Shown here: one piece after another, positions 7,818-63,200 of the stretch
Numbering within the stretch: position 1 is the stretch's first letter
Layout: the number at the start of each line of letters is the position of its first letter
Assembly (NCBI GenBank): GCA_036873755.1
Contig: JAVTVY010020541.1
Location: 17,126-81,125, forward strand
Length of the DNA stretch: 64,000 nucleotides
DNA from: Hanleya hanleyi
Taxonomy: Eukaryota > Mollusca > Polyplacophora > Lepidopleurida > Hanleyidae
Direction of reading: 5' to 3'
Notes under the pieces: model-generated
What the model saw: the letters and a program-made list of their open reading frames with translations, nothing else
Databases searched by the model: none
Told to the model about the DNA's origin: nothing
Program-made: the position numbers and the translations under genes

Positions 7818-7819
7818 CT

Positions 7820-19038: not shown

Positions 19039-19083
19039 GGAAGCGGCCTGGCCGTTTCATCAGACACTCTGTCAACAACCAAG

Positions 19084-20258: not shown

Positions 20259-20312
20259 ATACCCAACGCGGCTCCCCCAGCGTGGGTATGATGTAACATT
20301 GGGGAGAATAAA
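20259..20312 (+). promoter_or_regulatory. 3' hairpin and AATAAA of ZFb copy 2
   Basis: Hairpin 20259-20289 (ATACCCA...TGGGTAT stem) and AATAAA 20307-20312, as at copy 1. Confidence 0.6.
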
Positions 20313-21334: not shown

Positions 21335-22555
21335 GGCCACTTGACTTACTATACCCAACTGCGCATGCGCAGATTGACGCGACTTGCACTTAAAAACACG
21401 CCATTCTGACTCTACCCCACACAAGCTTCACTTTGACACCTTCCACGACCCATTCGGACCCATAGCGGTCCATCTCTACCCCAAACACACACCCACATAC
21501 CCCCCAAAATGCCTGCTTTCTATACTACGGCCAGACTGCGCATGCGCAGAATATTGACAACGTACGAACCATTAGTGGAGTCAAGTGCTCCTGCATGAGA
21601 GCTTCAAAATAAGACCTCATACGACACCATTGGACCAACATGGACTCACCTAGACTCCAACACGTCCACCCAGCCGGGACACTTCCTATCATGTTTGTCT
21701 TGACGAGACTAAGAAACCAAATCCAAACAACCATACCGCAAATGTATAGAAGTAGGTTTCCCAGTGGGACAAACATTGGACCTATACCTCCATAACCCGT
21801 ATATGGGTCTATATGGGGCTATAGACAGACCTCGACCTTTTTTCAAAAATTTCACCGTTTCGTGCCGGGACACTTCCTATCATGTTTGTCTTGACGAGAC
21901 TAAGAAAACAAATCCAAACAACCATACCGCAAATGTCTAGAAGTAGGTTTCCCAGTGGGACAAACATTGGTCCTATACCCCTAATATGGGACTATAAGGG
22001 TCTCCCTGAACTTTTTCCAAAAATTTCAACGATTCGCTCCGCGACACTTCCTATCATGTTTGTCTTGACGAGACTAAGAAAACGAGACCCCACAACCTAT
22101 ACCGCAAATGTCGAGAAGTAGGTTTCCCAGGATGGTCCTATACCCCCATATAGCCAGCCTATAGGCCTATATACAGACCTCGGTGACTTTTTCCAAAAAT
22201 TCCACCGATTCGCCCCGGGACCCTTCCCATTGTCATTTTCTTGGCGAGACGAGAAAAACGCGACCCCACAAGCCATAGTAAAGCCCACGAAAAAAATTGA
22301 CCATCCCCATACCCCATACAGGCATTTTCCCGTATATTGTATAATACAGACCCCTATTGTAGGGGTAAAGTCAGAGTTCCGCTTTTTTTCTGGAGAATTG
22401 TTTACATGCACCCACCCCATTGACTTGATAGGCAGGTCTCAATAAGAGCGGGGACCAATATTAGCCCTTTTGGCTAGGGTTGATAGGTGTTTTCCCCTAT
22501 CTTAGGAGTAAAGTCCGTATTCCGCTTTTTTCTGGAGAAAGTTTTACATGCACCC
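21335..22555. repeat. Blocks N and A inverted, unit 2
   Basis: NRF1-type palindromes near 21360 and 21538, then A2 and A1 units as in 9000-10335. About one A2 unit is missing near 21670 relative to unit 1 (CACCCAG joins GCCGGGACAC directly). Confidence 0.8.
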
Positions 22556-23200
22556 ACCCATGACTGGATGCCCCCTCACATAGGCTTCACATTGATACCT
22601 CATACAACTCCATCGGCCCATTAGGGGCTCCACTAGATCCCAAAACGTCTATTTCCATACCATTTTTCCACAATTCCCTGTCTGCGCATGCGTAGAATGA
22701 TGACAACGCTCGAGCCATTAGTCCAGTCAGATGCCCCCTCACATAGGCTTCACATTGATACCTCAAACGACTCCATCGGCCCATTAGGGACTCCCCTAGA
22801 TCCCAAAACGTCTATTTCCATACCCTTTTCCCACAATTCCCTGTCTGCACATGCGCAGAATGGTGACAACGCCCGAGCCGCTAGTCCAGTCAGATGTCCC
22901 TTCACGAATGCTTCACATTGATACCTCATATGACCCCATTGGACCATTAGTGGCTCCCTGAGCTCCAAAACGTCTATGTTCATACCCTTTGGCCACCGCG
23001 CATGCGCAGAATGCCGATATTTCAATCCCACACCCAGCCCATCAGATGCCCCTTCACGAATGCTTCACTTTGATACCTCATTCGACCCAATCGGACCATG
23101 CAGCGTATTTCAAGTCTAGGGACTACTTTTTCTCCGCGGAAGCTTTCTTCCGCGACCGCATCACCGCCAGACCGCATCACCGCGGAGGAATACAAAGGTC
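22556..23200. repeat. Block H and CCGCGG segment, unit 2 right end
   Basis: Three H units (one more than unit 1), with CTGCGCATGCG-type sites, ending in the CTCCGCGGAAGC ... CACCGCGGAGG inverted pair. Similarity to unit 1 stops at AATACAAAGGTCA (about 23205), marking the right edge of unit 2. Confidence 0.8.
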
Positions 23201-23274
23201 AAAGAACTATTTTTGACCTGCAAAAATTGGAACTCTCCTGTATTCGGAGGTATTTTTTGGTCACAAGACTGGCG

Positions 23275-25530: not shown

Positions 25531-26275
25531 TTTGTTAAAAAGACCAGAACCCATGCCTGTTTTTAGCCACACATTATTTAGTTGTGGACTGCACCCTGGG
25601 CACGCGTCACGGGCCCTTTGGACCACAGATGGCCCATCACTATCCCAAAGACGTCCCTGTCCTCCTCAAATATGCCCACTTTGTCTACTACTCCTACTGA
25701 TGACGTCACAGATGACGTGGACACCCCTCAAGTCGTGGTCTATGCCACGAAACCTTCACTTTGAGACCTCACCCGACGCATTCGGACCAAGAATTTTCCT
25801 TCAGTTGCTCAAGCACACCCCCACGCACCCCTAAAACGCCCACTTTGGCTACTACTCGTACTGATGACGTCACCAATGACGTAACAGATGACATGGACAT
25901 CCCTCAAGTCGTGGTCTATACCACGAGAGCTTCAATTACACCTCACATGACGCATTCGGACCAAGAATGGTCCTTCAATCGCTCAAACGCACCCCACGCA
26001 CCCCCCAAAACGCCCACCTTGGCTACTACTCGTACTGATGACGTTACCAATGACGTCATAGATGACGTGGACATCCCCCAGCGTGGGCATGATGTGATGG
26101 AGGGGAGAATAAAATAATTGACCGGTCATCCTTGTTGTTGTTCTCTCATCTGTCCACATTATGGCGTCAAGGTGTTATGCTAGGGCGTTAAGGCGTTAAG
26201 ATAATGCGTTCGGGCGTTAAGATATAGCGTTAAGACGTTGAGAGGGGCGTTGAAGGGCGTCACTGCATTTCGATG
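25530..26275. repeat. Diverged block B units and GGCGTT spacer
   Basis: Three diverged ~170-bp units, each with ACTGATGACGTCAC, a TGACGT half-site, ACCCCTCAAGTCGTGGTC and CATTCGGACCAAGAATGG, followed by CCCCCAGCGTGGGCATGAT...GGGGAGAATAAAATAA (a damaged hairpin plus AATAAA) and the GGCGTT-rich spacer. An older, truncated relative of the unit 1-3 satellites. Confidence 0.75.
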
Positions 26276-34860: not shown

Positions 34861-35057
34861 CGTCACGATGGATTGGTGTCAATTCCATGGGATATCACGT
34901 GGTGATTTAGACCAATCAGAGCTTTTGAACACACTTTCGCTCTCTCTCTTTCTCTCTCTCTCTTGGGCGTTGAAGCAGATCGATAGGCGTTGGTGGGGGC
35001 TACGTTGTTACGTCCAAAAAAAGCAACCCTGTCCGATAGACGTTCACAGTCGACGTT

Positions 35058-35230
35058 AGTAGTATAGTAAGCGTAAATTCCTTAGTATTTTCAGGGTACC
35101 CGAAAAAGAGCGCCAATCGGGAACCCTCCAAATGAGGTAGAATTTCCTTTTATGACATCCAGGAGTGTGAACATGATAGGACATGTACTGAAGTGTGACG
35201 TCATGTATGACGTCACTTCCGGTCTGCGTG
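35058..35230. repeat. Terminal segment, left end of unit 3
   Basis: Terminal inverted repeat with AAATTCCTTAGTATTTTCAG and GGTACCCGAAAAAGAGCG, then two CRE octamers (TGACGTCA near 35200 and 35209) and CACTTCCGGTC. Its mirror is 47735-47906. Units 1 and 2 lack it in the window. Confidence 0.85.
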
Positions 35231-35890
35231 AATCGGGCGTGTGTATTCCTCCGCGGTGATGTGGTCTGGTGGTGATGCGGTCTGCCTCCGCGGACAGAAA
35301 GTAGTCCCAAATTCTCCGGCATTCTCCGGCAATCTTCAGGGGCGAGAGGGCTCCCTAGTGTGCCGATTGGGTCGTATGAGGTATCAATGTGAAGCATTCG
35401 TGAAGGGGCATCTGATGGGATGGGTGTGGTGTTGAAATATCGTCATTCTGCGCATGTGCGGTGGCCAAAGGGTATGAAAATAGCCGTTTTGGAGCTAGGG
35501 GAGCCACTAATGGTCCAATGGGGCCATATGAGGTATCAATGTGAAGCATTCGTCAAGGGGCATCTGACTGGACTAGCGGTTCGGGCATTGTCGCCATTCT
35601 GCGCATGCGCAGACAGGGAATTGTTGGAAAAGGGTATGGAAATAGACTTTTTGGGATCTAGGGGAGCCCCTAATGGGCCGATGGAGTCATATGAGGTATC
35701 AATGTGAAGCCTATGTGAGGGGGCATCTGACTGGACTAGTGGCTCGGGCGTTGTCACCATTCTGCGCATGCACAGACAGGGAATTGTGGGAAAAGGGTAT
35801 GGAAATAGACGTTTTGGGATCTAGGGGAGCCCCTAATGGGCCGATGGAGTTGTATGAGGTATCAATGTGATGCCTATGTGAAGGGGCATC
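35231..35890. repeat. CCGCGG segment and block H, left arm of unit 3
   Basis: CCGCGGTGATG ... CTCCGCGG inverted pair, then H units with NRF1-type sites at about 35446, 35600 and 35762 (the first and last degraded by one base). Mirror at 47070-47720. Confidence 0.8.
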
Positions 35891-36640
35891 TATTCATGGG
35901 TGGGTGCATGTAAAACTTTCTCCAGAAAAAAAGCGGAAAACGGACTTTACTCCTAAAATAGGAGAAAACACCTATCAACCCTAGCCAAAAGGGCTAATAT
36001 TGGTCCCCGGGCTTAACGGGGATTGCCTATCAATAGAGTTATCTCCCCCTAGTTCCAGGGTTGGTGTATTTAAAATTTTTCCTGAAAAAATACGGAACAC
36101 GGACTTTATCCTAAATTACGGGAAAATGCCTCCCACTGGGAAACCTACTTCTATACATTTGCGGTATGGTTGTTTGGATTTGTTTTCTTAGTCTCGTCAA
36201 GACAAACATGATAGGAAGTGTCCCGGCACGAAACGGTGAAATTTTTGAAAAAAGTTCGAGGAGACCCATATAGTCCCATACTAGGGGTATAGGTCCAATG
36301 TTTGTCCCACTGGGAAACCTACTTCTATACATTTGCGGTATGGTTGTTTGGATTTGTTTTCTTAGTCTCGTCATTTAGAACACGATGGGAAGGGTCCCGG
36401 AGCGAAACGGTGAAATTTTTGGAAAAAGTCACCGAGGTCTGTATATAGGCCTATAGGCTGGCTATATGGGGAGTATAGGTCCAACCTGGGAAATTCACAC
36501 ACGTTCATTGTGATATGGGCTGTTTCGATTTGTTTTTCAAGTCTCGTCATTTAGAACACGATGGGAAGGGTCCCGGAGCGAAACGGTGAAATTTTTGGAA
36601 AAAGTCACCGAGGCCTGGGTAGGCCCATAGGCCTATACTG
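35891..36640. repeat. Block A, left arm of unit 3
   Basis: A1 then A2 units, including two copies of GACAAACATGATAGGAAGTG/AGTAGGTTTCCCAGTGGGAC-type sequence. Mirror at 46320-47060, slightly shorter or longer per unit. Confidence 0.75.
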
Positions 36641-36979
36641 CATGGCTATGTGTGTATAGGTCCATACGAGGTGGACGTTTTGGGGTCTAAGTCCCTAATG
36701 ATCCGATGGGGTCGTATGAGGTCTTATTTTGAAGCTGTCGTGGAGGAGCATCCGACTGGACTAATAGTTCGTAAGTGTTCAATATTCTGCGCATGCGCAG
36801 TCTGGCCCGTAGTATAGAAAGCAGGCATTTTGGGGGGTATGTGGGTGTGTGTTTGGGGTAGAGATGCACCGCCATGGGTCCGAATGGGTCGTGGAGGATG
36901 ATATGACATGTACAGACCTGTCTGTGTCGTTCATCTCCGTATCTTTTCGGTGAGAGGAGCCTGTACTGGGGTTTTTCCC

Positions 36980-37300
36980 CACAATGGCGTTCACCTTCGG
37001 GTCTTTCCGGTCAACGTATTCTCCATTTTCCCACAATGGCGTTCACCTTCGGATCTTTCCGGTCAACGTATTCTCCATTTTCCCACAATGGCGGTGGATC
37101 CGCAATTATCCGCCATTTTCCCACAATGGCGATGTATCCGCCATTATCCGCCATTTTCCCACAATGGCGGTGTATCCGCCATTATCCGCCATTTTCCCAC
37201 AATGGTGGTGTATCCTCCATTATCCGCCATTTTCCCACAATGGCGGTCACCTTTGGGTCAACGTATCCGCCATTTTCCCACAATGGCGTTCACCTCCGTG
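36980..37300. repeat. YY1-type hairpin array, left arm
   Basis: About 38-bp repeats, each with CCGCCATT, a TTCCCAC spacer and AATGGCGG (a perfect 8-bp stem), separated by TGTATCCGCCATTAT. The GCCATTTT/GCCATTAT cores match the YY1 motif. Flanking longer units carry TTCACCTTCGGGTC and TCAACGTATTCTCC. Mirror array at 45525-45960 is ~70 bp longer. Confidence 0.85.
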
Positions 37301-37369
37301 TCTTTCCGGTGAGGTCCGTGAAGATGCGAATGCCACATTTTTGGTACCGTGCCAGGAGCCAGCCAGAGA

Positions 37370-38110
37370 TGCACCGCTATGGTTCCGAATGGGTCGTGGA
37401 AGGTGTCAAAGTGAAGCTTGTGTGGGGTAGAGTCAGAATGGCGTGGTTTTAAATGCAAGTCGCGTCAATCTGCGCATGCGCAGTTGGTTGTAGTAAGTAA
37501 AGTGGACATTTTCGGGCAGTGAAGGAAGGTATTTGGTGTAGAGAGGGGCCATTCTCAGTCCGAATGCGTCGTGTGAGGTGTCATGTTGTAGCTCTTGGGG
37601 TGTAGACCCCGATTTGAGGGATGTTCACGTCATCTGTGACGTCATTGGTGACGTCATCAGTACGAGTAGTAGCCAAAGTGGACATTTTGGGGCAGTGAAA
37701 GGAATGTATTTGGTGTAGAGAGGGGCCATTCTCAGTCCGAATGCGTCGTGGGAGGTGTCATCTTGTAGTTCTCGGGGTGCAAACCCCGATTTGAGGGCTG
37801 TCCACAGCATCTGTGACGTCATTGGTGACGTCATCAGTAGGAGTAGTAGCGAAAGTGAGCCTTTTGGGCCAGTGAAGGTTGTTATTTGGTGTAGAGATGG
37901 ACCATCCGCGGTGCGAATGCGTCATGGGAGGTGTCATGTTGTAGCTCTCGGGCTGTAGACCCCAATTTGAGGGATATCCACAGCATCTGTGACGTCATTG
38001 GTGACGTCATCAGTACGAGTAGTAGCGAAAGTGGGCATTTTTTAGCAGTGAAGGATGTTATTTGGTGTAGAGATGGACCATCCGCGGTGCGAATGCGTCG
38101 TATGAGATGT
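37370..38110. repeat. Blocks N and B, left arm of unit 3
   Basis: NRF1-type palindrome near 37470, then CRE pairs near 37637, 37815 and 37990. Mirror at 44750-45420. Confidence 0.85.
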
Positions 38111-38400
38111 CATATTGTAGCAACGCCCGTCAACGCCAAGCTTAACGCTTCATCGCCCTGGCGAAATAGCTCAGAAGTTCTGATTTTCTAGATATTCCAT
38201 GGAATTGTCACAAACTGGAAATGCAGTGACGCCCGTCAACGCTTGTAGTTACGCCTTAACGCTCTAACATAACGCCTTGACGCCATGATATAGACAGGAG
38301 AGAGAACAACAACAACAACAAGGATGACACATGAGAGAACAACAACAACAAGAAGTTTTTTCATATAGTTTATTTTCCCCAATGTTGCATCATATCCACG
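38111..38400. repeat. GGCGTT-rich spacer, left arm
   Basis: CAACGCC and AACAACAAC runs, reverse complement of 7820-8060-type spacer, followed by the AATAAA of ZFb copy 3 on the minus strand. Confidence 0.7.
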
Positions 38401-38672
38401 CTGGGGGAGCCGCGTTGGGCATATTTACCATTCAAGAAGATTCTTGTCCAATCAGAGGCCACCATTTGCATGTTTCATATTCGTTCCTGTCCGTTAGATG
38501 TATTCTTGTCCAATCAGAAGTCTCCATTTCAGAAAGTTCCATCTTCGGCCATGTTCGCTCTGAACCGTTTATTCTAATCATCGTCGGGCAGCCCAGGATA
38601 CCGTTGAGGCAACATATCCTCAGATAGTTGTTTGCGCATTCTGAGTATCTATCAGTGCATGGGTGAATACTT

Positions 38673-39601
38673 TCATCCGATGGGGGGTGGTGGTCAGTTT
38701 AACCACGAAGAACGTAACATTGGTCATTATCTCCACTATCCACTTGGTGTTGGGGCGCTGTTCATAGGCCCATTCCAAGGGATCCACAGTGTCCAGTTGG
38801 GCCAGCATCGTCTCTAGCGACGCCCGATTAGTGATTGTGAAAGGATGGTCGTACACTGGGTTGATGGCACTGGAATAGAAATAGCGCAATTCACCCGTCA
38901 TCTTATGGCATAATATGTACCCAAATGCTACATTTAATGTGAAGGACGTAGGTTGATCATTGAAGATGGCATCCATGTAGCTGCGTAGACGGGCGAGGCC
39001 AGTCAGTCGAAAATTGTACAAGTCCAATATAGGGCGATGACGGTGGAAACAGTGTCGGATCATGGACCAATGGCGTCGATACATCTCACTCACTGGATGA
39101 TCTTCGGGTAAGAGATCAATGGGAACATCCACCGCATCTTCCAGAAAAGGTTCGTTGTTGTCAGGCGTATGACCGGGAACAGTAATGCTAGGGACCGACT
39201 GGATATCTAGGCTCTTCTGAACTGTGGGTATAGGCGGGCTCTCCGTGATCGCATCACCAGTGGCATTCGGTCTCTCCGGGTTCATCTTCAGTGAGTCTGT
39301 CCCTCCTGGGTGCCTCTTTAGTGGAAAGTTGTCCCTCATGCCGTGGTGACGGACCATGAATCAAGCGCTCATGCCGTCTTAACTGACTGGGTCGTTTGAA
39401 GAGTTGACCACATTCTTCGCATGGACGCTTGGGTGGCCCATGAATTGAACGTTCATGGCGCTGTAAATGATCCGGGCGCTGAAACGACAGTGTGCATATC
39501 GTACAGCTATACCGGGCGGTTCCGTCGTGCTTGGTAGCCTCATGGCGGCGCAAGTCGTGCAGACGAGTGAATGATTTCGAGCACGTAGTACAAGTTAACA
39601 T
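38673..39601 (-). pseudogene. ZFb copy 3: zinc-finger gene with one frameshift (left arm of unit 3)
   Basis: Start MLTCTTCSKSF at 39601 (Phe to Leu at residue 2 relative to other copies). Three complete C2H2 fingers. One extra G near 39269 shifts the frame just after TEDEPGET. The C-terminal domain is open from 39357 in the other frame and overruns the ancestral stop because of an extra C in the C-run near 38685. The 3' hairpin at about 38391-38424 is also damaged (ATATCCACGC against GTTGGGCATAT). It is the counterpart of copy 4 but its lesions differ. Confidence 0.85.
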
Positions 39602-39646
39602 CTTGGTGGTTGACAGAGTGTCTGATGAAACGGCCAGGCCGCTTCC

Positions 39647-39681
39647 CTTTTATAGCAAGCTAGCTGGTGATCTATTTTTAG
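39647..39681 (-). promoter_or_regulatory. Core promoter of ZFb copy 3
   Basis: CTAAAAATAG (39672-39681) and TATAAAAG (39647-39654) on the minus strand. Confidence 0.75.
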
Positions 39682-39908
39682 CACAATCAGTTCAACTTGG
39701 ACGTCAGCCACAAGAACCCGGATGTAAGCGCGGACGTCAGCAACAAGAACCCGGATGTAGGCGCGGACGTCAAGAACCCGGAAGTTAGAGGGGAGGTGAC
39801 CGGCCTATCGACCAATCAGAAACCATCATTTCAGTTCAATCTTCGTTCAGTGTAACCTAAACGTCTTCGGGCAATCCATGATACTGAAGCTCGAAGCTCT
39901 TACTTCTC

Positions 39909-40190
39909 TCATTCAACACTGAGATCAATGTCCATCGACTCTTCAATCCGCGGCGAACCGACCTCCATGGGTTCATCTATTCTCAGATGCATTCCGATAG
40001 AAACTGAAATATCCGGTCTCGAGAGTGGCGAGCGTGATCCGTGTATGACATTTCGGTGACGACTCAATTGACTGGGATGCTTAAAGGCTATATCACAATC
40101 CGCACATGCATGCATGGGTACTTCGTGGCGTGCACGTGTGTGACAACGCAAACTGTCCAGGCGATGAAAGCGCTTCGAGCAAGAGAACAT
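39909..40190 (-). CDS. Small C2H2 protein, copy 3 (finger 1 damaged)
   Basis: A 93-aa open frame. A 9-nt in-frame deletion after codon 3 removes the first two metal-binding cysteines' spacing (MFSCSKRFH instead of MFSCTTCSKRFH), so finger 1 has lost its C-x2-C. Finger 2 (CADC...RHRNVIH) is intact. The stop has moved, adding a Glu (DLSVE). The acidic repeats remain. It probably encodes a one-finger protein, or nothing. TATA box (TATAAGAG) at 40235-40242 on the minus strand. Confidence 0.55.
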   Translation of the reverse strand: MFSCSKRFHRLDSLRCHTRARHEVPMHACADCDIAFKHPSQLSRHRNVIHGSRSPLSRPDISVSIGMHLRIDEPMEVGSPRIEESMDIDLSVE

Positions 40191-40409
40191 ATCGGCTGTG
40201 GATCTGGAAATGATGAATGCCGTAAAACTTTCGGCTCTTATAGGCCAACATAGGAGTACCCGGATGTTCTACAGTCAGGGATGTACAAGAACCCGGATGT
40301 ACCCGGATGTAAAAGTGCCCGGATGTTCACGAATGTACTACCATCCCGGACTTCTATCAGGCCCAGGTCCAGAAGCTCTCATGTCCTGCATGTGAATAGT
40401 CAGTCATAT

Positions 40410-41205
40410 TGTGTGTGCGTGTGCGTGCATGTGCGTGTATGTGTGTGTGCGTCTGTGTGTCTGCGTCTGTATGTATGTGTCTGTGTGTGTGTGTGTGTGT
40501 GTGCATGCCTGTGTTTGTGTAGGTGTGTGTGTGTGTATGCATGTGTGTGTATGTGTGCGGGTGTGCGTGCATGTGCGTGCGTGTATGTGTGTGTATGCGT
40601 CTGTGTGTGTGTGTGTGTGTGCGTGTGTGTGTGTGCGTGTGTGTGTATGCAGCATGTGTGTCTATACCTCTGTGGGTAGGTGTGTGTATGTCGCCGTGTG
40701 CCATGATACAGACAGATGAAAGGAACACCAGGGTACCAGGAACTGACCTTTGACCCCTACGCGCTAGCGCATATTGACCTTTGACCTCAGAAATTTGCAT
40801 ATCACGTGACAGAGGTCAAAGGTCAATGAGTGCACTTGGAGCTCAGAGCTCGGAAGTGACATTTGCATATGACCTCCGTGAGGTCACTTCCGCTTCCGTT
40901 CACCTGACCGGAACTGACCTTTGACCCCGGCGCCCTCCGTGTCACTTCGGTAACCTCCGTGACATCTTCGGCCACCTCCGTGTCTCTTCGGTGACTTCCG
41001 TGACATCTTCGGTAACCTACGTGTCTTTTCGGGCACCTCCGTGACATCTTCGGTGAAGCATGTGCGTATGCGTGTATGTGTGTTTGCGTCTGTGTGTATG
41101 CGTCTGTGCGCGTGTGTATGAGTCTGTGTATATGTGTGCATTGCGTCTGTGTGTATGTGTGTATGCGTGTATGCGTCTGTGTGTATGCGTGTGTGTGTGT
41201 GTATG
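40410..41205. repeat. TG arrays, DR1/E-box segment and CTTCGG repeats, left arm
   Basis: TG arrays at 40410-40690 and 41055-41205 enclose 40730-40930, with TGACCTTTGACCCC, ATATCACGTGAC, GAGCTC, TTTGCATATGACC and CACTTCCG, and 40930-41055, a ~30-bp repeat of CTCCGTGACATCTTCGG/CTTCGGTAAC. Mirror at 41655-42440. Confidence 0.8.
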
Positions 41206-41660
41206 CAACCACCACCACCACCACCACCACCATCACCACTACCACCACCACACACCACCGCACACCACCACCACCACACACCACCACACACCACCACTAC
41301 CACCACCACCACCACCGGGCCTTGACGCCCGTCAACGCCACCACCACCACCACACACCACCACACCACCACCACCACCACCACGACCACCACCACTGGGC
41401 ACACGTACCTGGTGCACCCTGTACCCGCATAGGGTACACCAGGGTGTGGGTGCAACAGGTACGTGTGCCCAGTGGTGGTGGTCGTGGTGGTGGTGTGGTG
41501 GTGTGTGGTGGTGGTGGTGGCGTTGACGGGCGTCAACGCCCGGTGGTGGTGGTGGTAGTGGTGGTGTGTGGTGGTGTGTGGTGGTGGTGGTGTGTGGTGG
41601 TGTGTGGTGGTGGTAGTGGTGATGGTGGTGGTGGCGGTGGTGGTGGTTGCATACACACAC
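41206..41660. repeat. Apex of unit 3: CCA/TGG arrays and 5-nt loop
   Basis: (CCA)n with CACACCACC variants up to 41395, then a unique apex, then (TGG)n from 41471. TGTACCC (41420-41426) pairs with GGGTACA (41432-41438) around GCATA. GGGCACACGTACCT and AGGTACGTGTGCCC form the next stem. This is the symmetry centre of the 12.85-kb palindrome. Confidence 0.9.
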
Positions 41661-42211
41661 ACACACACGCACGCATACACACAGACGCATACACGCATAC
41701 ACACATACACACAGACGCAATGCACACATACACACAGACTCATACACACGCGCACAGACGCATACACACAGACGCAAACACACATACACGCATACGCACA
41801 TGCTTCACCGAAGATGTCACGGAGATGCCCTAAGAGACACGTAGGTTACCGAAGATGTCACGGAAGTCACCGAAGAGACACGGAGGTGACCGAAGATGTC
41901 ACGGAGGTTACCGAAGAGACACGGAGGGCGCCGGGGTCAAAAGTCAGTTCCGGTCAGGTGAACGGAAGCGGAAGTGACCTCACGGAGGTCATATGCAAAT
42001 GTCACTTCCGAGCTCTGAGCTCCAAGTGCACCCATTGACCTTTGGCCTCTGTCACGTGATATGCAAATTTCTGAGGTCAACGGTCAATATGCGCTAGTGC
42101 GCAGGGGTCAAAGGCCAGTTCCTGGTACCCTGGTGTTCCTCTCATCTGTCTGTATCATGGCACACGGCGACATACACACACCTACCCACAGACGTATACA
42201 CACACATGCTG

Positions 42212-42248
<37 letters not shown>

Positions 42249-42440
42249 GCATACACACACATACACGCACGCACATGCACGCACACCCGCACACATACAC
42301 ACACATGCATACACACACACCTACACAAACACACGCATGCACAGACACACACACACACACAGACACATACATACAGACGCAGACACACAGACACACACAC
42401 GCATACACGCACATGCACGCACACGCACACACAATATGAC
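41655..42440. repeat. CA arrays, CTTCGG repeats and DR1/E-box segment, right arm
   Basis: Mirror of 40410-41205: CA array 41655-41800, CCGAAGATGTCACGGAGGT repeats 41805-41935, CCGGTCAGGTGAACGGAAGCGG, AGGGGTCAAAGGCCAG, then CA array 42175-42435. Confidence 0.8.
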
Positions 42441-42615
42441 TGACTATTCACATGCAGGACAGGAGAGCTTCTGGACCTGGGCCTGATAGAAGTCCGGGAT
42501 GGTAGTACATTCGTGACCATCCGGGCACTTTTACATCCGGGACTTTTACATCCGGGTATATCCGGGTTCTTGTACATCCCTGACTGTAGAACGTCCGGGT
42601 ACTCCTATGTTGGCC

Positions 42616-42623
42616 TATAAGAG
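42616..42623 (+). promoter_or_regulatory. TATA box of small zinc-finger gene, copy 4
   Basis: TATAAGAG in the conserved context, with ACATCCGG-type repeats upstream at 42510-42600. Confidence 0.65.
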
Positions 42624-42667
42624 CCGAAAGTTTTACGGCATTCATCATTTCCAGATCCACAGCCGAT

Positions 42668-42949
42668 ATGTTATCTTGCTCGAAGCGCTTTCATCGCCTG
42701 GACAGTTTGCGTTGTCACACACGTGCACGCCACGAAGTACCCATGCATACATGTGCGGATTGTGATATAGGCTTTAAGCATCCCAGTCAATTGAGTCGTC
42801 ACCGAAATGTCATACACGGATCACGCTCGCCACTCTCGAGACCGGATATTTCAGTTTCTATCGGAATGCATCTGAGAATAGATGAACCCATGGAGGTCGA
42901 TTCGCCGCGGATTGAAGAGCCGATGGAGATTGATCTCAGTGTTGAATGA
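42668..42949 (+). CDS. Small C2H2 protein, copy 4 (finger 1 damaged)
   Basis: A 93-aa open frame, MLSCSKRFH..., with the same 9-nt deletion as copy 3 in the opposite arm, so finger 1 lacks its C-x2-C. Finger 2 and the acidic repeats (RIDEPMEVDSP, RIEEPMEIDLSVE) are intact. The deletion shared by both arms shows they descend from one parental arm or have been homogenised. Functional status doubtful. Confidence 0.55.
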   Translation: MLSCSKRFHRLDSLRCHTRARHEVPMHTCADCDIGFKHPSQLSRHRNVIHGSRSPLSRPDISVSIGMHLRIDEPMEVDSPRIEEPMEIDLSVE

Positions 42950-43180
42950 GAGAAGTAAGAGCTTCGAGCTTCAGTATAATGGATTGCCCGAAGACGTTTA
43001 GGTTACACTGAACGAAGATTGAACTTTCTGAAATGATGGCTTCTGATTGGTCGATAGGCCGGTCACCTCCCCCCTAACTTCCGGGTTCTTGACGTCCGCG
43101 CCTACATCCGGGTTCTTGTTGCTGACGTCCGCGCCTAATTCCGGGTTCTTGTCGCTGACGTCCAAGTTGAACTGATTGTG

Positions 43181-43215
43181 CTAAAAATAGATCACCAGCT
43201 AGCTTGCTATAAAAG
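43181..43215 (+). promoter_or_regulatory. Core promoter of ZFb copy 4
   Basis: CTAAAAATAG (43181-43190) and TATAAAAG (43208-43215), 45 bp before the ATG at 43261. Confidence 0.75.
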
Positions 43216-43260
43216 GAAAGCGGCCTGGCCGTTTCATCAGACACTCTGTCAACCACCAAG

Positions 43261-44187
43261 ATGTTCACTTGTACTACGTGCTCGAAATCATTCACTCGTC
43301 TGCACGACTTGCGCCGCCATGAGGCTACCAAGCACGACGGAACCGCCCGGTATAGCTGTACGATATGTACACTGTCGTTTCAGCGCCCGGATCATTTACA
43401 GCGCCATGAACGTTCAATTCATGGGCCACCCAAGCGTCCATGCGAAGAATGTGGTCAACTCTTCAAACGACCCAGTCAGTTAAGACGGCATGAGCGTTTG
43501 ATTCATGGTCCGTCACCACGGCATGCGGGACAGCTTTCCACTAAAGAGGCACCCAGGAGGGACAGACTCACTGAAGATGAACCCGGAGAGACGAATGCCA
43601 CTGGTGATGCGATCACGGAGAGCCCGCCTATACCCACAGTTCAGAAGAGCCTAGATATCCAGTCGGTCCCTAGCATTACTGTTCCCGGTCATACGCCTGA
43701 CAACAACGAACCATTTCTGGAAGATGCGGTGGATGTTCCCAGCGAACTCTTACCCGAAGATCATCCAGTGAGTGAGATGTATCGACGCCATTGATCCATG
43801 ATCCGACACTGTTTCCACCGTCATCGCCCTATATTGGACTTGTACAATTTCCGACTGACTGGCCTCGCCCGTCTACGCAGCTACGTGGAAGCCATCTTCA
43901 ATGATCAACCTACGTCCTTCACATTAAATGTAGCATTTGGGTACATATTATGCCATAAGATGACGGGTGAATTGCGCTATTTCTATTCCAGTGCCATCAA
44001 CCCAGTGTACGACCATCCTTTCACAATCACCAATCGGGCGTCGCTAGAGACGATGCTGGCCCAACTGGACACTGTGGATCCCTTGGAATGGGCCTATGAA
44101 CAGCGCCCCAACACCAAGTAGATAGTGGAGATAATGACCAATGTTACGTTCTTCGTGGTTAAACTGACCACCACCCCCATCGGATGA
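43261..44187 (+). pseudogene. ZFb copy 4: zinc-finger gene with two nonsense codons (right arm of unit 3)
   Basis: The frame matches the inferred ancestral one throughout, with two premature stops: TGA at 43792-43794 (Trp of RRHW) and TAG at 44119-44121 (Trp of TKWIV). Three C2H2 fingers at about residues 2-25, 31-54 and 59-82 are intact. This is the only ZFb copy whose C-run leaves the ancestral PIG-stop in frame (TGA 44185-44187). Both stops are TGG changes. Confidence 0.85.
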
Positions 44188-44437
44188 AAGTATTCACCCA
44201 TGCACTGATAGATACTCAGAATGCGCAAACAACTATCTGAGGATATGTTGCCTCAACGGTATCCTGGCCTGCCCGACGATGATTAGAATAAACGGTTCAG
44301 AGCGAACATGGCCAAAGATGGAACTTTCTGAAATGGAGACTTCTGATTGGACAAGAATACATCTAACGGACAGGAACGAATATGAAACATGCAAATGGTG
44401 GCCTCTGATTGGACAAGAATCTTCTTGAATGGTAAAT

Positions 44438-44468
44438 ATACCCAACGCGGCTCCCCCAGCGTGGGTAT
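44438..44468 (+). promoter_or_regulatory. 3' hairpin of ZFb copy 4
   Basis: ATACCCA-A-CGC with GCG-TGGGTAT around a GGCTCCCCCA loop, followed by AATAAA about 15 bp downstream. Confidence 0.6.
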
Positions 44469-44509
44469 GATGTAACATTGGGGAAAATAAACTATATGAA
44501 AAAACTTCT

Positions 44510-45420
44510 TGTTGTTGTTGTTCTCTCATGTGTCATCCTTGTTGTTGTTGTTGTTCTCTCTCCGGTCTATATCATGGCGTCAAGGCGTTATGTTAGAGCG
44601 TTAAGGTGTAACTACAAGCGTTGACGGGCGTCACTGCATTTCGGAGAATTGGTGACAATTCCATGGAATATCTAGAAAATCAGAACTTCTGAGCTATTTC
44701 ACCAGGGCGTTGAAGCATTAAGCTTGGCGTTGACGGGCGTTGCTACAATATGACACCTCATACGACGCATTCGCACCGCGGATGGTCCATCTCTACACCA
44801 AATAACATCCTCCACTGCTAAAAAATGCCCACTTTCGCTATTATTCGTACTGATGACGTCACCAATGACGTCACAGATGCTGTGGATATCCCTCAAATTG
44901 GGGTCTACAGCCCGAGAGCTACAACATGACACCCCCCATGACGCATTCGCACCGCGGATGGTCCATCTCTACACCAAATAACATCCTTCACTGCCCCAAA
45001 AGGCTCACTTTCGCTACTACTCCTACTGATGACGTCACCAATGACGTCACAGATGCTGTGGACAGCCCTCAAATCGGGGTTTGCACCCCGAGAACTACAA
45101 GATGACACCTCCCACGACGCATTTGGACTGAGAATGGCCCCTCTCTACACCAAATACCTTCCTTTCACTGCCCCAAAATGTCCACTTTGGCTACTACTCG
45201 TACTGATGACGTCACCAATGACGTCAAATCGGGGTCTACACCCCAAGAGCTACAACATGACACCTCACACGACGCATTCGGAGCAAGGATGGTCCCTCTC
45301 TACACCAAATACCTTCCTTCACTGCCCCAAAATGTCCACTTTACTTACTACAACCAACTGCGCATGCGCAGATTGACGCGACTTGCATTTAAAACCACGC
45401 CATTCTGACTCTACCCCACA
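44510..45420. repeat. GGCGTT spacer, blocks B and N, right arm of unit 3
   Basis: Mirror of 37370-38300. CRE pairs near 44855, 45030 and 45205; the third unit is shortened (ATGACGTCAAATCGGGG). NRF1-type palindrome near 45358. Confidence 0.8.
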
Positions 45421-45524
45421 CAAGCTTCACTTTGACACCTTCCACGACCCATTCGGAACCATAGCGGTGCATCTCTGGCTGGCTCCTGGCACGGTGCCAA
45501 AAATGTGGCATTCGCATCTTCACG

Positions 45525-45960
45525 GACCTCACCGAAAAGACACGGAGGTGAACGCCATTGTGGGAAAATGGCGGATACGTTGACCCGAAGGTGACCGCCA
45601 TTGTGGGAAAATGGCGGATAATGGCGGATACACCGCCATTGTGGGAAAATGGCGGATAATGGCGGATACACCGCCATTGAGGGAAAATGGCGGATAATTG
45701 GGAAAATGGCGGATAATGGCGGATACACCGCCATTGTGGGAAAATGGCGGATAATGGCGGATACACCGCCATTGTGGGAAAATGGCGGATAATGGCGGAT
45801 ACACCGCCATTGTGGGAAAATGGCGGATAATGGCGGATACACCGCCATTGTGGGAAAATGGAGAATACGTTGACCGGAAAGACCCGAAGGTGAACGCCAT
45901 TGTGGGAAAATGGAGAATACGTTGACCGGAAAGACCCGAAGGTGAACGCCATTGTGGGGA
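45525..45960. repeat. YY1-type hairpin array, right arm
   Basis: Same CCGCCATT...AATGGCGG units as 36980-37300 but about two units longer, with one partial unit (GGATAATTGGGAAAATGG near 45690) showing recent slippage or unequal exchange. Confidence 0.85.
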
Positions 45961-46049
45961 AAAACCCCAGTACAGGCTCCTCTCACCGAAAAGATTCTGA
46001 GATGAACGACACAGACAGGTCTGTACATGTCCTATCATCCTCCACGACC

Positions 46050-47060
46050 CATTCGGACCCATAGCGGTGCATCTCTACCCCAAACACACACCCACATACC
46101 CCCAAAATGCCTGCTTTCTATACTACGGGCCAGACTGCGCATGCGCAGACTATTGAACACGGACGAACTATTAGTCCAGTCGGATGCTCCTCCACGACAG
46201 CTTCAAAATAAGACCTCATACGACCCCATCGGATCATTAGGGACTTACCTAGACCCCAAAACGTCCACCCCGTATGAACCTATACACCCATAGCCATGCA
46301 GTATAGGCCTATGGGCCTACCCAGGCCTCGGTGACTTTTTCCAAAAATTTCACCGTTTCGCTCCGGGACCCTTCCCATCGTGTTCTAAATGACGAGACGT
46401 GAAAAACAAATCCAAACAGCCCATATCACAATGAACGTGTGTGAATTTCCCAGGTTGGACCTATACTCCCCATATAGCCAGCCTATAGGCCTATATACAG
46501 ACCTCGGTGACTTTTTCCAAAAATTTCACCGTTTCGTGCCGGGACACTTCCTATCATGTTTGTCTTGACGAGACTAAGAAAACAAATCCAAACAACCATA
46601 CCGCAAATGTATAGAAGTAGGTTTCCCAGTGGGACAAACATTGGTCCTATACCCCTAGTATGGGACTATATGGGTCTCCTCGAACTTTTTCAAAAATTTC
46701 AACGATTCGCTCCGCGACACTTCCTATCATGTTTGTCTTGACGAGACTAAGAAAACGAGACCCCACAACCTATACCGCAAATGTCGAGAAGTAGGCTTCC
46801 CAGGATGGTCCTATACCCCCCATACCCCATATAGGCATTTTCCCGTAATTTAGGATAAAGTCCGTGTTCCGTATTTTTTTCAGGAAAAATTTTACATACA
46901 CCCACCCTGGAACTAGGGGGAGATAACTCTATTGATAGGCAAGCCCCGTTAAGCCCGGGGACCAATATTAGCCCTTTTGGCTAGGGTTGATAGGTGTTTT
47001 CCCCTATCTTAGGAGTAAAGTCCGTTTTCCGCTTTTTTTCTGGAGAAAGTTTTACATGCA
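46050..47060. repeat. Blocks N and A, right arm of unit 3
   Basis: Mirror of 35891-36880: NRF1-type palindrome near 46136, then A2 and A1 units ending CCCGGGGACCAATATTAGCC. Confidence 0.75.
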
Positions 47061-47906
47061 CCCACCCATGACTAGATGCCCCTTCACATAGGCTTCACAT
47101 TGATACCTCATACAACTCCATCGGCCCATTAGGGGCTCCCCTAGATCCCAAAACGTCTATTTCCATACCCTTTTCCCACAATTCCCTGTCTGTGCATGCG
47201 CAGAATGGTGACAACGCCCGAGCCACTAGTCCAGTCAGATGCCCCCTCACATAGGCTTCACATTGATACCTCATACGACTCCATCGGCCCATTAGGGGCT
47301 CCCCTAGATCCCAAAAATCTATTTCCATACCCTTTTCCAACAATTCCCTGTCTGCGCATGCGCAGAATGGTGACAACGCCCGAGCCGCTAGTCCAGTCAG
47401 ATGCCCCTTGACGAATGCTTCACATTGATACCTCATATGACCCCATTGGACCATTAGTGGCTCCCCTAGCTCCAAAACGGCTATTTTCATACCCTTTGGC
47501 CACCGCGCATGCGCAGAATGACGATATTTCAACACCACACCCATCCCATCAGATGCTCCTTCACGAATGCTTCACATTGATACCTCATACGATCCAATCG
47601 GCACAATAGGGACCCCTCTCGCCCCTGAAGATTGCCGGAGAATGCCGGAGAATTTGGGACTACTTTCTGTCCGCGGAGGCAGACCGCATCACCACCAGAC
47701 CACATCACCGCGGAGGAATACACACGCCCGATTCACGCAGACCGGAAGTGACGTCATACATGACGTCACACTTCAGTACATGTCCTATCATGTTCACACT
47801 CCTGCATGTCATAAAAGTAAATTCTACCTCATTTGGAGGATTCCCAATTGGCGCTCTTTTTCGGGTACCCTGAAAATACTAAGGAATTTACGCTTACTAT
47901 ACTACT
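47061..47906. repeat. Block H, CCGCGG segment and terminal segment, right end of unit 3
   Basis: Mirror of 35058-35890, with NRF1-type sites near 47190, 47354 and 47507, and CRE octamers near 47749 and 47761. It ends CGCTTACTATACTACT followed by the GACGTT duplicate. Confidence 0.85.
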
Positions 47907-47912
47907 GACGTT

Positions 47913-48513: not shown

Positions 48514-48988
48514 ATGCAACGTGCGAGATCCAGATCACCGTTCTCCATAAATCCAAGACCGTTCGAGGAGGAAGACTTCACCGCCGACCTTTAGTGACGA
48601 ACCGCACCGGGAGGTGTTACCGGAACATGATGCCGTGAGCTGTATGACCACGCTATTAGTCAATCATCCCTCGCGGTTTCACTGCCATCGTCTTGGGCTG
48701 GGCCTGTACACTTTCCGGATAATCGACCACACCAGTCTGACCAACTAGACCGACACCATGTTTTGCCGATCAACCCACGGCCTTCCGGTTGAATCTGACA
48801 TTCGGGTGCATACAGCGGCAATAAAGGAGATGGACCAGCGCCGGTACCGCGCATCACTGAAGACGGTCCTGGACCAAATGGTCACCTTGGATCCCTTGAA
48901 CGGGCCGCGAATCCATCTTCCTCAGCCTCAGGATTATTTTATATATGCAATGTGTGCAAAAATCCGCATGGTCAACCCCATGTTTTGA
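48514..48988 (+). pseudogene. Decayed relative of the ZFa/ZFb C-terminal domain
   Basis: A TATA-like CATAAATAG lies at 48422-48430. ATG at 48514 opens only 26 codons (MQRARSRSPFSINP...) before TAG. In the same frame the text then resembles the family domain: LPEHDAVSCM (compare LPEDHPVSEM), FHCHRLGLGLYTFRI (compare FHRHRPILDLYNFRL), then another TAG, and later YRASLKTVLDQMVTLDPL (compare NRASLETMLAQLDTVDPL). No zinc fingers precede it. It lies ~600 bp outside unit 3, and its divergence indicates a much older copy or a separate lineage. Confidence 0.65.
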
Positions 48989-55384: not shown

Positions 55385-57440
55385 TGTACGGACATTTCTC
55401 CCACCGGACATTTCCCCCAGTGGGCATTTCCCCCAGTGGACATTTCCCCCACCCTATATTTTGTGGTTATTTTGAACATAGTTTTCAAATAATTTGGCAA
55501 TAACACACATTTTTTAATATTTTTTTATTTTATATATAAAAAGGATTTCCACATATGTTTTACGATAAATGAGTCACATAGTGATAATACAAGCGTCTAG
55601 TCCGTCATCCATAATTCAGCCGTCGTCCATTAAAGAATATCCGCGTCCATAATTCAAAGACCTATTCCATATCCATATAACAGTATTAGCACCAAATTCA
55701 AAAAAGACAATCATAGTATACATAAACATAGGCTAGTTTCCTGCAAGAGAGAAGCGGTCAACAGTTTCAATGATGCCGACAAGACATCATGATGTTCCAA
55801 AAATATAAAATCCGTATCGCTGATCAGTATTCTTAATCCATAATAATCGTTCTAAAGTCGTTATCTAGAGAATGGTGTATCTCAGTCACGCTTTGATTGT
55901 GACTGTTCATATGAGCACCATGAGGATCTTGAAGTACATGGGTTCATACGGCCCCTAGCCCCGGGTTAAGCGGAATTAGACACAAGTTACGAAACGTAGC
56001 GCCATAGATCTTGCACGCTACGTTCGTATTTTGCTATCAGCATGCGATATGTATCGCCAAATTTGAGAAACTTTGAGTGGAGGCGCTTGGGGGAATAGCC
56101 CTGTTTTATAAGTTTCTGCAACAATGTTTTGTGACGTTGATTGAAATCGTCACAATTAACACAGGATCTAGCAAATGCTACTAGGTGAGATATGTATACG
56201 CCATATGCAGGTCCCACTGGAATATTACTGTCCAGAAAGGGATAGTTTACGATGTCGAAATTGTAATCATCTCTTTTGTCATAAAGTCGACGAGAGAGAA
56301 TGCCCGCTTCATTTTTATAGAGATAGAGATCTAAATATGATGTGCCTGTAGGGCTATCTGTAGTTTCCTTCAAATCCAGTGAAGGTGGATATATATCCTT
56401 CACTGCGTCATTTATATAGCGATTATCCACAGCGAGAAGATCGTCTATATAGCGTTTGGTGAATGAAAAGGAACGGGCTTTGAATGGATCGGTTTTTGAA
56501 AGCGCCTGCATATAGTCATATTCATAAGAGAACAGATACAGGTCAGCCAACAGGGGTGCGCAATTAGTACCCATTGGAATACCTATATGCTGTTGATATA
56601 TTGTGTTGCCAAATTTCACATAGATATTTTTGATGAGAAATTCATGCAACTCTATAAACAAAGAAACATCCCATGAATGATATCTCTTGTATGTAGTAGA
56701 GCTAAAGAATGCTTTATGGCTTCCGACATTAATATATCTACGATCTGTTTTCTTGAACACAGATACTATTAATGAACTTAGACGGTCAATAAGGTCCTAA
56801 TGAGGGATTGTAGTATAGAGAGTCGAGAAATCCCATGTGGATACATGTCTGTACGGTATGTGACCTTTAGCATCAAGTTCCTCCGTAAGACATTTTGATT
56901 TTTTAATATCCACATACATTCAACGCCAGACATTATACATATACACAGTATACATCAGTATTATACAGTCCTATATCACATTTGAAAACAATATAAAAGT
57001 TATATGAATATTATATGTTATCACTATGTGATTCATTATATTGTTTAAAAATGTGCTATATAATATATAATGTGCTTTCTCGTAAAACTTATTATAAAAA
57101 TAGGCCTATGTGCTATATTGTTTTAAAATGTGCTATAAGACTGTATAATACTGCTATATACAGTGTATATGTATAATATCTTATCACTATTTGACTCATT
57201 TATCGTAAAACATATGTGGAAATCCTCACATCCTTTTTATAGAAAATAATAAATATATATTTAAAAAAATTGTGTTTTTTTTTTTTTGTCGACGAGAAAA
57301 CCTAAAACTATAGGGTGGGGGAAATGTCCACTGGGGAAAATGCCCACTGGGGAAATGCCCACCGGGGGAAATGTCCATGGGGAAAATGTCCGCTGGGGGA
57401 AATGTCCACTGGGGGAAATGCCCTGGATTCACAATAAAAG
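55385..57440. mobile_element. Composite element with ~200-bp inverted ends around a reverse-transcriptase relic
   Basis: The left end (55385-55590: repeated GGACATTTCCCCCA, then CCACATATGTTTTACGATAA) is inverted at the right (57185-57440: CGTAAAACATATGTGG, then GGGGGAAATGTCC repeats). Between them lie a repeat D copy (55590-55860, minus), a Penelope-like RT fragment and an AT-rich stretch (56950-57180). Best read as nested insertions, or as one Penelope-like copy with inverted flanks. Confidence 0.6.
55987..56930 (-). pseudogene. Penelope-like reverse transcriptase fragment
   Basis: Catalytic motifs are visible on the minus strand: motif A as TWDFSTLYTTIPH upstream of a premature TAG (56797-56799), motif B as GIPMGTNCAPLLADL, motif C as RYIDDLL (YIDD), then YDKRDDYNFDIVNYPF and the C-terminal RHKTLLQKLIKQGY region. 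The open frame from MFKKTDRR (56760) is 257 codons and starts after the stop, so it is not a true start. The wider RT frame begins near 56930. No endonuclease domain is seen. RT identity is secure; the Penelope assignment is likely but from memory of related sequences. Confidence 0.75.
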
Positions 57441-59702: not shown

Positions 59703-60254
59703 TTACGCCTTTCGGAAATTCTTAGCCTGGTCGTGATCGTAAAGTTCCGGAATTTTTTCGGGGCCATCCTCCAAGACGTAATCCAGAATCTCGTCCACAA
59801 ACTCGTCCCTGCTAATACCGCCGTTTCCGTCCCTATCGATCTGCCTGAAGATGTGCTCTATGTAATCCCGGTTATGGATACCAAAAGCATTTTGGTAGAT
59901 CGCGTATTCTTCTAGAGATATTTCTCCATCTCCATTGGAATCGATAACATCAAAGCTTATCTCGGCATATTTCCCAATATTGAACTTCAAAACATCCCTT
60001 TCGTGATTCCAGAAGTGGACCCAGCAGCCAACCCATTGTTCTTCAGACACGGCTTCCTTATAGCCCCTGGATCCATATACTTCCCAGATCAATTCACAAA
60101 CATCCAAAGCAGGGGCAGCTCTGGCTCCGTATATGGTCACCAAGCGTTCGCCATAGCTTCTGAAGTCGTTTTTTGTCACAATTCCATCTTTATCTGTGTC
60201 ACGGTAGTGAAAACGTTTTTTCCACTTCCGGATCAATGCGTCAGATGCTTCCAT
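59703..60254 (-). CDS. Calexcitin / sarcoplasmic calcium-binding protein-like EF-hand protein
   Basis: A 183-aa soluble protein, the usual length for calexcitins and invertebrate sarcoplasmic calcium-binding proteins, which buffer or sense Ca2+ in muscle and neurons. EF-hand loops: residues 19-30 (D19, D21, D23, G24, D30), 105-116 (D105, N107, D109, G110, E116) and 140-151 (D140, D142, N144, G145, E151). The second EF-hand position (about 60-72) lacks ligands, as is common in this family. The ATG has a strong context (CACCATGG) and MEASDALIRKW fits a family N terminus. A pyrimidine-containing tract ending TTGTAG lies ~17 bp upstream, so a 5'-UTR intron is possible. The coding region has no intron; a retrocopy is an alternative. 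The frame is intact. Confidence 0.88.
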   Translation of the reverse strand: MEASDALIRKWKKRFHYRDTDKDGIVTKNDFRSYGERLVTIYGARAAPALDVCELIWEVYGSRGYKEAVSEEQWVGCWVHFWNHERDVLKFNIGKYAEISFDVIDSNGDGEISLEEYAIYQNAFGIHNRDYIEHIFRQIDRDGNGGISRDEFVDEILDYVLEDGPEKIPELYDHDQAKNFRKA

Positions 60255-60299
60255 GGTGGAGCTTGGTACTCTACAACATTAAGACATTAATACCTGTCA

Positions 60300-63200
60300 T
60301 AAAGAATTCTACAACATGTGGACGTTGGTGATGATTCTACAGCATGTGGACATTGATAGAGGTGATGGTGATTCTACAACATATGGACATTGATAGAGGT
60401 GATGATGATTCTACAGCATGGACATAGGTAGAGGGGATGATGATTCTACACCATGTGAACATTGAAAATAAGATGGTGATCCTACATCATCTGAACATTG
60501 ATAGAGGTGATGATGATTCTACTGCATGGACATTGGTAGAGGTGATGATTATTCTACACCATGTGGAGACTTTGAAGTGATGATGATTCTACACCATGTG
60601 GACATTGATAAAGGAGATGGTCATTCTACAACATATGAACATTGATAGAGGAGATGATGCTTCTACAACATGGACATAGGTAGAAGTGATGCTGAATCTA
60701 CGCCATGTGGACATTGATTAAGGACATGGTGATCCTACACCATGGGGACATTGATAAAGGTGATGCTGATTCTACACCATGTAGACGCTGATAAAGGTAA
60801 TGGTGATTCTACACCATGTGGACGTTGAAAGTGGGGATGGTGATTCTATGGACATAGCTAGAGATGATGATGATGATTTTACACCATGTGAATATTGATA
60901 GACGTGATGTTGATTCCACACCATATAGACATTGAGAAAGGAGATGGTGATTCTACAACATATGGACATTGACAGAGGTGATGATGATTCTACAACATGG
61001 ACATTGATAGATTTGATGATGATTCTACACCATATGGACTTTGATAAATGTGATGATGATTCTACACCTTGGTGAAATTGACAAATGTGATGACGATTCT
61101 ACACGATATGGACATTGATAAAGCTGATGATGCTTTTACGCCAAATGGACATTGCCAAAGGTGATGATGATTCTACACCACGTGGACATTGATAAGGGAG
61201 ATAGTGATTTTAGAAAACGGAAACATTGATAAAGGTGATGATGATTCTACACCAAGTGGACATTGATAAGGGAGATAGTGATTTTACAAAACGGAAACAT
61301 TGATAAAGGTGATGATGATTCTACACCATGTGAACATTGATAAATGTGATGATGATTCTACACCTTGTTGAAATTGATAAATGTGATGACGATTCTACAC
61401 CATATGGACATTGATAAAGCTGATGATGATTCTACGCCAAGTGGACATTTACAAAGGTGATGATGATTCTACACCACGTGGACATTGAAAAATGTGATGA
61501 TTATTCTCCACCATGTGGGCAATGATAAAGGTGATGATGATCTACACCGTGTGGACAATAATATAGATCATGATGATTCTGCACCATGTGGACCTTGATA
61601 AATGTGATGATGAGTCTACATTATGTGGGCATTGATAAAGATGGTGATGAGTCTACTCCATGTGGACATTGATAATGGTGATGATGATTCTTCTCTATGT
61701 AGACATTGATAAATTTGATGATTATTCTACACCATATGGGCATTGCTAATGGTCATGGTGATTCTACACCGTGTGGACGATTTGATGATGACTACATTGA
61801 TCAAGGTGATGATGATTCTACACCATGTGGACATTGTTAAATGTGATGATTATTCTACACGTGATCATGATTCTACACCATGTGGACATTGATAAAGGTC
61901 ATGATGATTCTACACCGTGTGGACATTGATGATTGTGATGATGACTCTACACCATGTGGACATTGATAAAGGTGATGATGATTCTACATCATGTGGAAAT
62001 TGATAAAGGTGATGATGGTTACACACCATGTGGAAATTGATAATGTTGATCATGATTCTGCACCATGTGGACATTGATAAAGGTGATGTTAATTCTACAG
62101 CATGTGAACATTGATAGAGGTAATGATGATTCCACACCATGTGGAAATTGATAATAGTGATCATGATTCTGCACCATGTGGACATTGATAAAGGTAATGT
62201 TAATTCTACAGCATGTGGATATTGATAAAGGCGATGATGATTCTACATCATGTGGAAATTGATAAATGTGATGATGATTCTACACCATGTGGAAATTGAT
62301 AATGGTGATCATGATTCTGCATCATGTGGACATTGATAACGGTGATGGTGATTCTACACCATGTGGACATTGATGAACGTGATAGTGATTCTACACCATG
62401 TGGACATTGATAATGGTGATGGTGATTCTCCACCATGTGGACATTGATAAATGTGATGATTATTCTACACCATGTGGGCAATGATAAAGGTGATGATGAT
62501 CTACATCTTGTGGACAATAATATAGCTCATGATAATTCTGCACCATGTGGACCTTGATAAATGTGATGATGAATCTACATTATGTGGGCATTGATAAAGA
62601 TGGTGATGATTCTACTCCATGTGGACATTGATAAAGGTGATGATGATTCTACTCTATGTAGACAATGATCAAGGTGATGATGGTTCTACACCATGTGGAC
62701 ATTGTTAAATGTGATGATTATTCTACACGTGATCATGATTCTACACCATGTGGACATTGATAAAGGTCATGATGATTCTACACCGTGTGGAAATTGATAA
62801 TGGTGACCATGATTCTGCACCATGTGGACATTGATAAAGGTGATGGTGATTCTACACCATGTGGGGGAAGTGTTCTGATAATGAGTGATGTGGAGTTCCT
62901 GCTCCACCATTTAGACAATGATAAAGGTGATGGTGATTCTACATCATGTAGATACTTATCAAAGAGATGGTGATTTTACAGCACGGAAACATTGATAAAG
63001 GTGATCGTGATTCTGCACCATGTAGACATTGATACAGGTGATCATGATTCCACATCATGTAGACATTGATGGAGGTGATCGTGATTCTACATCATGTAGA
63101 CATTGATAATGGTGATCATGATTCCACATCATGTAGACATTGATGGAGGTGATCGTGATTCTACACCATGTAGACATTGATAATGGTGATCATGATTCCA

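Follow-up and report, generated by a model that had tools for sequence, protein, structure and literature searches.

The question raised by this locus is what kind of element consists, over its full length, of two inverted copies of one sequence, and how such an element came to be inserted. The locus, palindrome C, occupies 12.85 kb (35058-47906) of a 64,000-nucleotide stretch of the Hanleya hanleyi genome (C17925:17126-81125; hereafter the window), and the assembly searched for its relatives comprised 2.48 Gb in 52,793 contigs. Based on its sequence, the reading of C as a Maverick-derived non-autonomous element, and not a Maverick proper, is well supported. The wording "Maverick-derived" was chosen because the ends and the size of the target duplication are shared with Mavericks and the gene content is not. 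An earlier note on this DNA left the element unrecognised; its ends and coded domain now place it with Maverick/Polinton. The explanation favoured here, with a probability of roughly 0.6, is that C is a copy of an abundant, non-autonomous, self-complementary family of Maverick/Polinton type, born by snap-back and moved by Maverick enzymes acting in trans.

The following parts of C were delimited.

35052-35057, forward strand: left target-site duplication GACGTT (sequence; joined-flank matches across the junction)
35058-41426, forward strand: left arm, starting AGTAGTATAGTAAGCG (end motif, arm alignment)
35467-35891: 163-bp tandem repeats near the left end, with a mirror copy at 47074-47497
37499-38121: 176-bp tandem repeats, with a mirror copy at 44742-45226
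40410-42433: inner region around the centre, with GT/AC-rich and ACC/GTG-rich simple repeats
41420-41438: centre, stem TGTACCC/GGGTACA and loop GCATA
41432-47906, reverse strand: right arm, ending ...CTATACTACT (arm alignment)
47907-47912, forward strand: right target-site duplication GACGTT (sequence)

With gaps allowed, 35058-41429 and the reverse-complemented 41434-47906 (arm lengths 6,372 and 6,473 bp) shared 6,153 identities in 6,315 aligned positions (97.4%). When scored in blocks of 250 columns, identity was 92-99% in 26 of 27 blocks, and the last block (26 columns, at the centre) reached 69%. The non-identical part comprised 2.6% substitutions together with gaps of 95, 25, 22, 15 and 14 bases, and an ungapped comparison is therefore out of register past ~600 bp. 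The terminus AGTAGTATAGTAAGCG was present at 35058 on the forward strand and at 47906 on the reverse strand. Within three mismatches, the end motif had nine matches in the window, a result reached by none of 100 shuffles, and the outermost bases of the element ends (terminal 50-100 bp) start AGTAGTATAGTAAG. At the centre, TGTACCC-GCATA-GGGTACA forms a 7-bp stem around a 5-nt loop at 41427-41431. The earlier note's description of a complete palindrome down to this loop, with termini at 35058 and 47906 that are flanked by direct GACGTT repeats, was thus confirmed. Tandem repeats in the arms include units of 163, 174, 38 and 176 bp, followed by GT- and ACC-rich simple repeats further inward. A copy of the 176-bp-type repeat, ~74-75% identical, was also present at 25617-26080, outside any palindrome.

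The terminal 39 bases were then searched for in the assembly, allowing up to three mismatches. Sixteen occurrences were found, the window's two included, and the reversed control gave none. Both ends could be read for five elements, namely C, a sister element A in the same window, and one element each on contigs C781, C47045 and C16974; AGTAGT was present at both ends of all five. Perfect 6-bp direct repeats, all different, flanked three of the five (GACGTT for C, AGTATC for C781 and GATATT for C47045). The earlier note had proposed looking for further termini bordered by 6-bp repeats; the pattern held for these three and failed for A, where the flanks are mismatched, and for C16974, a fold-over described below. 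Additionally, GACGGA lay beside one left end (C43329) and one right end (C18143), and these two ends grouped in the tree (100/99). This pair was left out of the duplication count because its ends are on separate contigs.

For the empty-site search, the flanks of C were joined over a single GACGTT, and 40 matches were scored of 278 candidates. Of these best 40, 26 extended across the joint by 15 bases or more to either side, at 72-92% identity, and five corresponded to the flanks adjoining C itself. Judging from these alignments, C was inserted into a dispersed repeat, and the joint-spanning matches correspond to paralogous empty sites. An empty allele at C's own locus was not found among the joined-flank matches, and the empty site with a single GACGTT that had been suggested as a check was accordingly recovered at paralogous positions only. 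Together with the C781 and C47045 elements, which have the same ends and their own 6-bp duplications, the paralogous sites support the claim that the whole palindrome integrated, or arose from an integrated element.

A palindrome can also be produced during assembly, if a read or graph path is folded over at the centre. Exactly such a case was indicated by the flanks at C16974:69794-77581, where one and the same right flank was present on both sides; its two versions were 98.1% alike, and 98.1-99.8% alike to the flank in the window. The C16974 element is therefore read as an assembly fold-over through a palindrome of the C family, and serves as a warning for assemblies of genomes with such palindromes. 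For C itself an artefact of this kind is very improbable, since C, C781 and C47045 each have unlike left and right flanks with perfect 6-bp duplications, and since the arms of C differ by the substitutions and gaps given above. C is not an isolated case, and simple misassembly does not explain it.

Two related elements that the earlier note did not list were identified in the window.

1-11021: sister element A, with its left end outside the window at C17925:16689; left arm type 1, right arm type 2
2455-3792, reverse strand: type-1 gene of the left arm of A, zinc fingers plus polymerase N-terminal domain; a single open frame of 445 amino acids (aa)
11913-23201 (start approximate): sister element B, layout as in A, main pieces 92-97% identical

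No terminal sequence was seen at the edges of B. A and B are adjacent and in the same order, an arrangement suggestive of a tandemly duplicated hybrid palindrome. Of the elements elsewhere, that on C47045 was complete (9.65 kb) and palindromic, with a spacerless centre differing from the hairpin of C. The C781 element (16.8 kb) had inverted ends that included one piece of 2,558 bp at 96.3% identity.

To the gene content of C belong two copies of one gene and two shorter open reading frames (ORFs).

38620-39649, reverse strand: left-arm gene, type 2, C2H2 zinc fingers plus DNA polymerase B N-terminal domain; outward, split over two frames
43213-44184, forward strand: right-arm copy of this gene; outward, with in-frame stops
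39909-40268, reverse strand: left arm, short zinc-finger ORF of 119 aa nearer the centre, with a weak match to one finger
42590-42949, forward strand: right arm, short zinc-finger ORF of 119 aa nearer the centre, with a weak match to one finger

The domain downstream of the C2H2 fingers is ~160 aa long and corresponds by homology to the N-terminal part of larger proteins (P0001 at E 7.7e-22; 16 proteins with P0001, all matching the gene in the left arm of A). In these homologues the domain is followed by an OTU-like stretch and, in the longer ones, by exonuclease and polymerase motifs, including DTDS in P0013 (motifs and OTU likeness judged by eye). The domain is read as the N-terminal domain of a DNA polymerase B of adintovirus/Maverick type, whose OTU-like, exonuclease and polymerase parts are missing from the arms. 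Modelled alone, the domain gave a predicted local distance difference test score (pLDDT) of 91.1 and a predicted template modelling score (pTM) of 0.86. Its best viral match, at E 2.7e-5 and the sole one at E <= 0.001, was to a C2H2 protein of an adintovirus; DNA polymerases of densovirus and MELD-virus followed at E 0.007-0.03. Six longer homologues, P0013 and P0015 among them, were compared with the six window arms by tblastn (E <= 0.01). The matches of all six ended at the end of the N-terminal domain, that of P0013 (989 aa) covering only residues 1-43, and with nothing matched past this domain, no complete protein-primed DNA polymerase B was found in the window arms. In the 13 ORFs of C scanned against Pfam, some short frames lying outside the scan, only zinc-finger families were matched and no integrase, ATPase, protease, capsid or transposase family. 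To the right of C, a weak, broken match to the polymerase N-terminal domain was seen at 48677-48943 (27-30% identity; E 5e-5 and 0.001), probably an older remnant.

In a comparison of four arm copies, all had an identical stop after the domain, and two were frameshifted just upstream of that stop. Between type 1 and type 2, the ratio of nonsynonymous to synonymous substitution rates (dN/dS) was 0.18-0.23 at dS 0.72-1.05, over 107-157 codons. These ratios indicate that purifying selection acted on the arm gene, or its ancestor, as type 1 and type 2 diverged. Because the stop is common to both types, we think that the short gene itself was selected, the alternative being selection on full-length ancestors. 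Its product most likely binds element DNA.

Genome-wide, the arm domains were used to search the assembly, and the best 150 of 36,068 candidates (type 1) and the best 150 of 35,867 (type 2) were considered; these candidates are a first look and not confirmed copies. The palindromic layout requires divergent gene pairs. Among the matches listed, neighbouring genes less than 20 kb apart were divergent in 45 of 53 pairs (type 1, 25 of 29; type 2, 20 of 24), with start-to-start distances of 2.2-9.5 kb. Of the eight exceptions, seven had both genes in the same direction, including a pair that bridges A and B, and the eighth was convergent and lay between B and C. Of the 45 divergent pairs, at least 17 had both genes in stop-free frames of 323 aa or longer (frames picked by hand). 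The palindromes form an abundant family, in which the front part of the polymerase is typically present in both halves.

The divergent layout bears on the possibility that these were ordinary Mavericks whose ends were made alike after insertion, either by gene conversion or by inverted duplication within the chromosome. Arms did tend to be more alike within elements (97.9, 98.9 and 99.3% in three elements, terminal 430 bp) than between them (94.9-98.6% in four comparisons), as conversion would produce. Tree support for the within-element pairing was modest, at 83/78 for C781, with C and C47045 mixed with contigs of the same sites. A divergent arrangement in 45 of 53 pairs is too general for repeated chance rearrangement, and also against this possibility, nothing of the polymerase past its N-terminal domain was matched in the window and no capsid or integrase family in the scanned ORFs. 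Such a later levelling of the ends of ordinary Mavericks is considered quite improbable.

Under the favoured snap-back explanation, protein-primed copying of a Maverick-type parent would displace a single strand, which would fold back at a short inverted repeat and prime itself. The self-primed copy would become a linear duplex in which both ends correspond to one parental terminus. Carrying the same terminus twice, the duplex would have two replication and integration ends, so that mobilisation in trans becomes possible: it could be copied and inserted by Maverick polymerase and integrase, with a 6-bp duplication. Snap-back copying would explain the single end type on both sides, the minute loop and the differing centres; the centres of the two elements compared (the hairpin of C and the spacerless centre of C47045) were unlike, as expected from separate fold-back events. 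Among the 44 matches scored (from 27,955 candidates), host polymerases of this kind were found in open frames of up to 1,487 aa. Pox_A32-type ATPases were found as well (143 matches among the best 150 of 5,235 candidates), and trans-acting enzymes therefore plausibly exist. Both the mechanism of birth and the autonomous partner are what we infer from these data.

Several observations weigh against this explanation. No autonomous element with C-type ends was found, and the 4 kb around the start of a full-length polymerase on C41754 contained no such end; the N-terminal domain of that polymerase was only ~2/3 identical to the arm gene. The Pox_A32 profile also matched in 2 of 14 control genomes, both prokaryotes. 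P0001 and eight homologues gave no match to a Pfam polymerase family, and the polymerase assignment therefore rests on the motifs, the OTU-like neighbour and the folds. Within types, dN/dS was 0.18-0.96 except in one pair, which reached 2.0, and in three further pairs that had no synonymous change. The arm gene of C points toward the element end, unlike the inward polymerase module of most published vertebrate Mavericks (PMC8097293), so that the layout requires an extra inversion or a parent whose genes were ordered differently. The middle of the C781 element is asymmetric and partly duplicated, with both genes on one strand, so that full palindromy is common but not universal. A and B each have unlike arms, and the flanks of A differ (GACGAT left, TGTCTC right). 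Since A and B combine type-1 and type-2 arms, and A is flanked by no matching duplication, they look like products of recombination between palindromes.

A stronger form of the snap-back explanation can be put forward only tentatively. The elements might be true satellite replicons of Mavericks or adintoviruses, that is, self-propagating snap-back genomes in which the DNA-binding front of the polymerase was kept as a selected stand-alone gene that brings helper enzymes to two identical ends; very high copy number and the repeated formation of new centres would go with this. If the favoured reading is right, mobilisation in trans is open to elements with Maverick ends, and the family points to protein-primed snap-back replication within an animal genome. 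It would also constitute a fossil record of defective-genome formation, comparable to that of DNA viruses, and would account for a class of very large palindromes at which assemblies fail, C16974 being an example.

Beyond these elements, the window contained three further features.

55987-56796, reverse strand: reverse-transcriptase-like frame (judged by eye)
59703-60278, reverse strand: frame resembling an EF-hand calcium-binding protein (judged by eye)
60329-64000: 37-bp tandem array of ~99 copies, reaching the window end

Among known systems, Maverick/Polinton elements, including adintoviruses, are similar to C in their AGTAGT-type ends, 6-bp duplication and the N-terminal part of polymerase B, which C carries in its arms. 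According to PMC8097293, vertebrate Maverick ends are mostly (AGT)2//(ACT)2, alternatively (AG)3//(CT)3, with inverted repeats of 46-1,447 bp and 6-bp target duplications. Unlike these, the inverted repeat of C covers the whole element. C also lacks a recognised complete polymerase, integrase, ATPase or capsid gene. No fully palindromic Maverick in print was found by full-text literature search.

Foldback elements (FB, Galileo, Tetris) have long inverted repeats rich in tandem repeats as their hallmark, and are linked to P- or Mutator-type transposase. C resembles them in its very long inverted repeats with internal tandem repeats, and differs in its Maverick-like ends, the replication-gene fragment in each arm and the meeting of the arms at a 5-nt loop. 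C might itself be a foldback-type DNA transposon, whose long, internally repeated inverted ends meet mid-element; a cut-and-paste transposase of an unrelated kind would then have moved it, and the polymerase fragment would be captured cargo. The long, inverted, tandem-repeat-rich arms would fit, as would 13 scanned ORFs without transposase or integrase. Such an origin is unlikely, as it would require a double coincidence of Maverick-type ends with 6-bp duplication and cargo of Maverick/adintovirus type.

Snapback genomes of adeno-associated virus (AAV) are a working parallel to the proposed birth of C. In PMC8235507 they are described as self-complementary and defective, the 5' kind retaining part of rep together with the P5 promoter, and end joining is the origin favoured by its authors. 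Like C, they are self-complementary defective genomes, and the 5' kind keeps part of a replication gene; unlike C, which belongs to an integrated transposon family, they belong to a parvovirus and are particle-borne.

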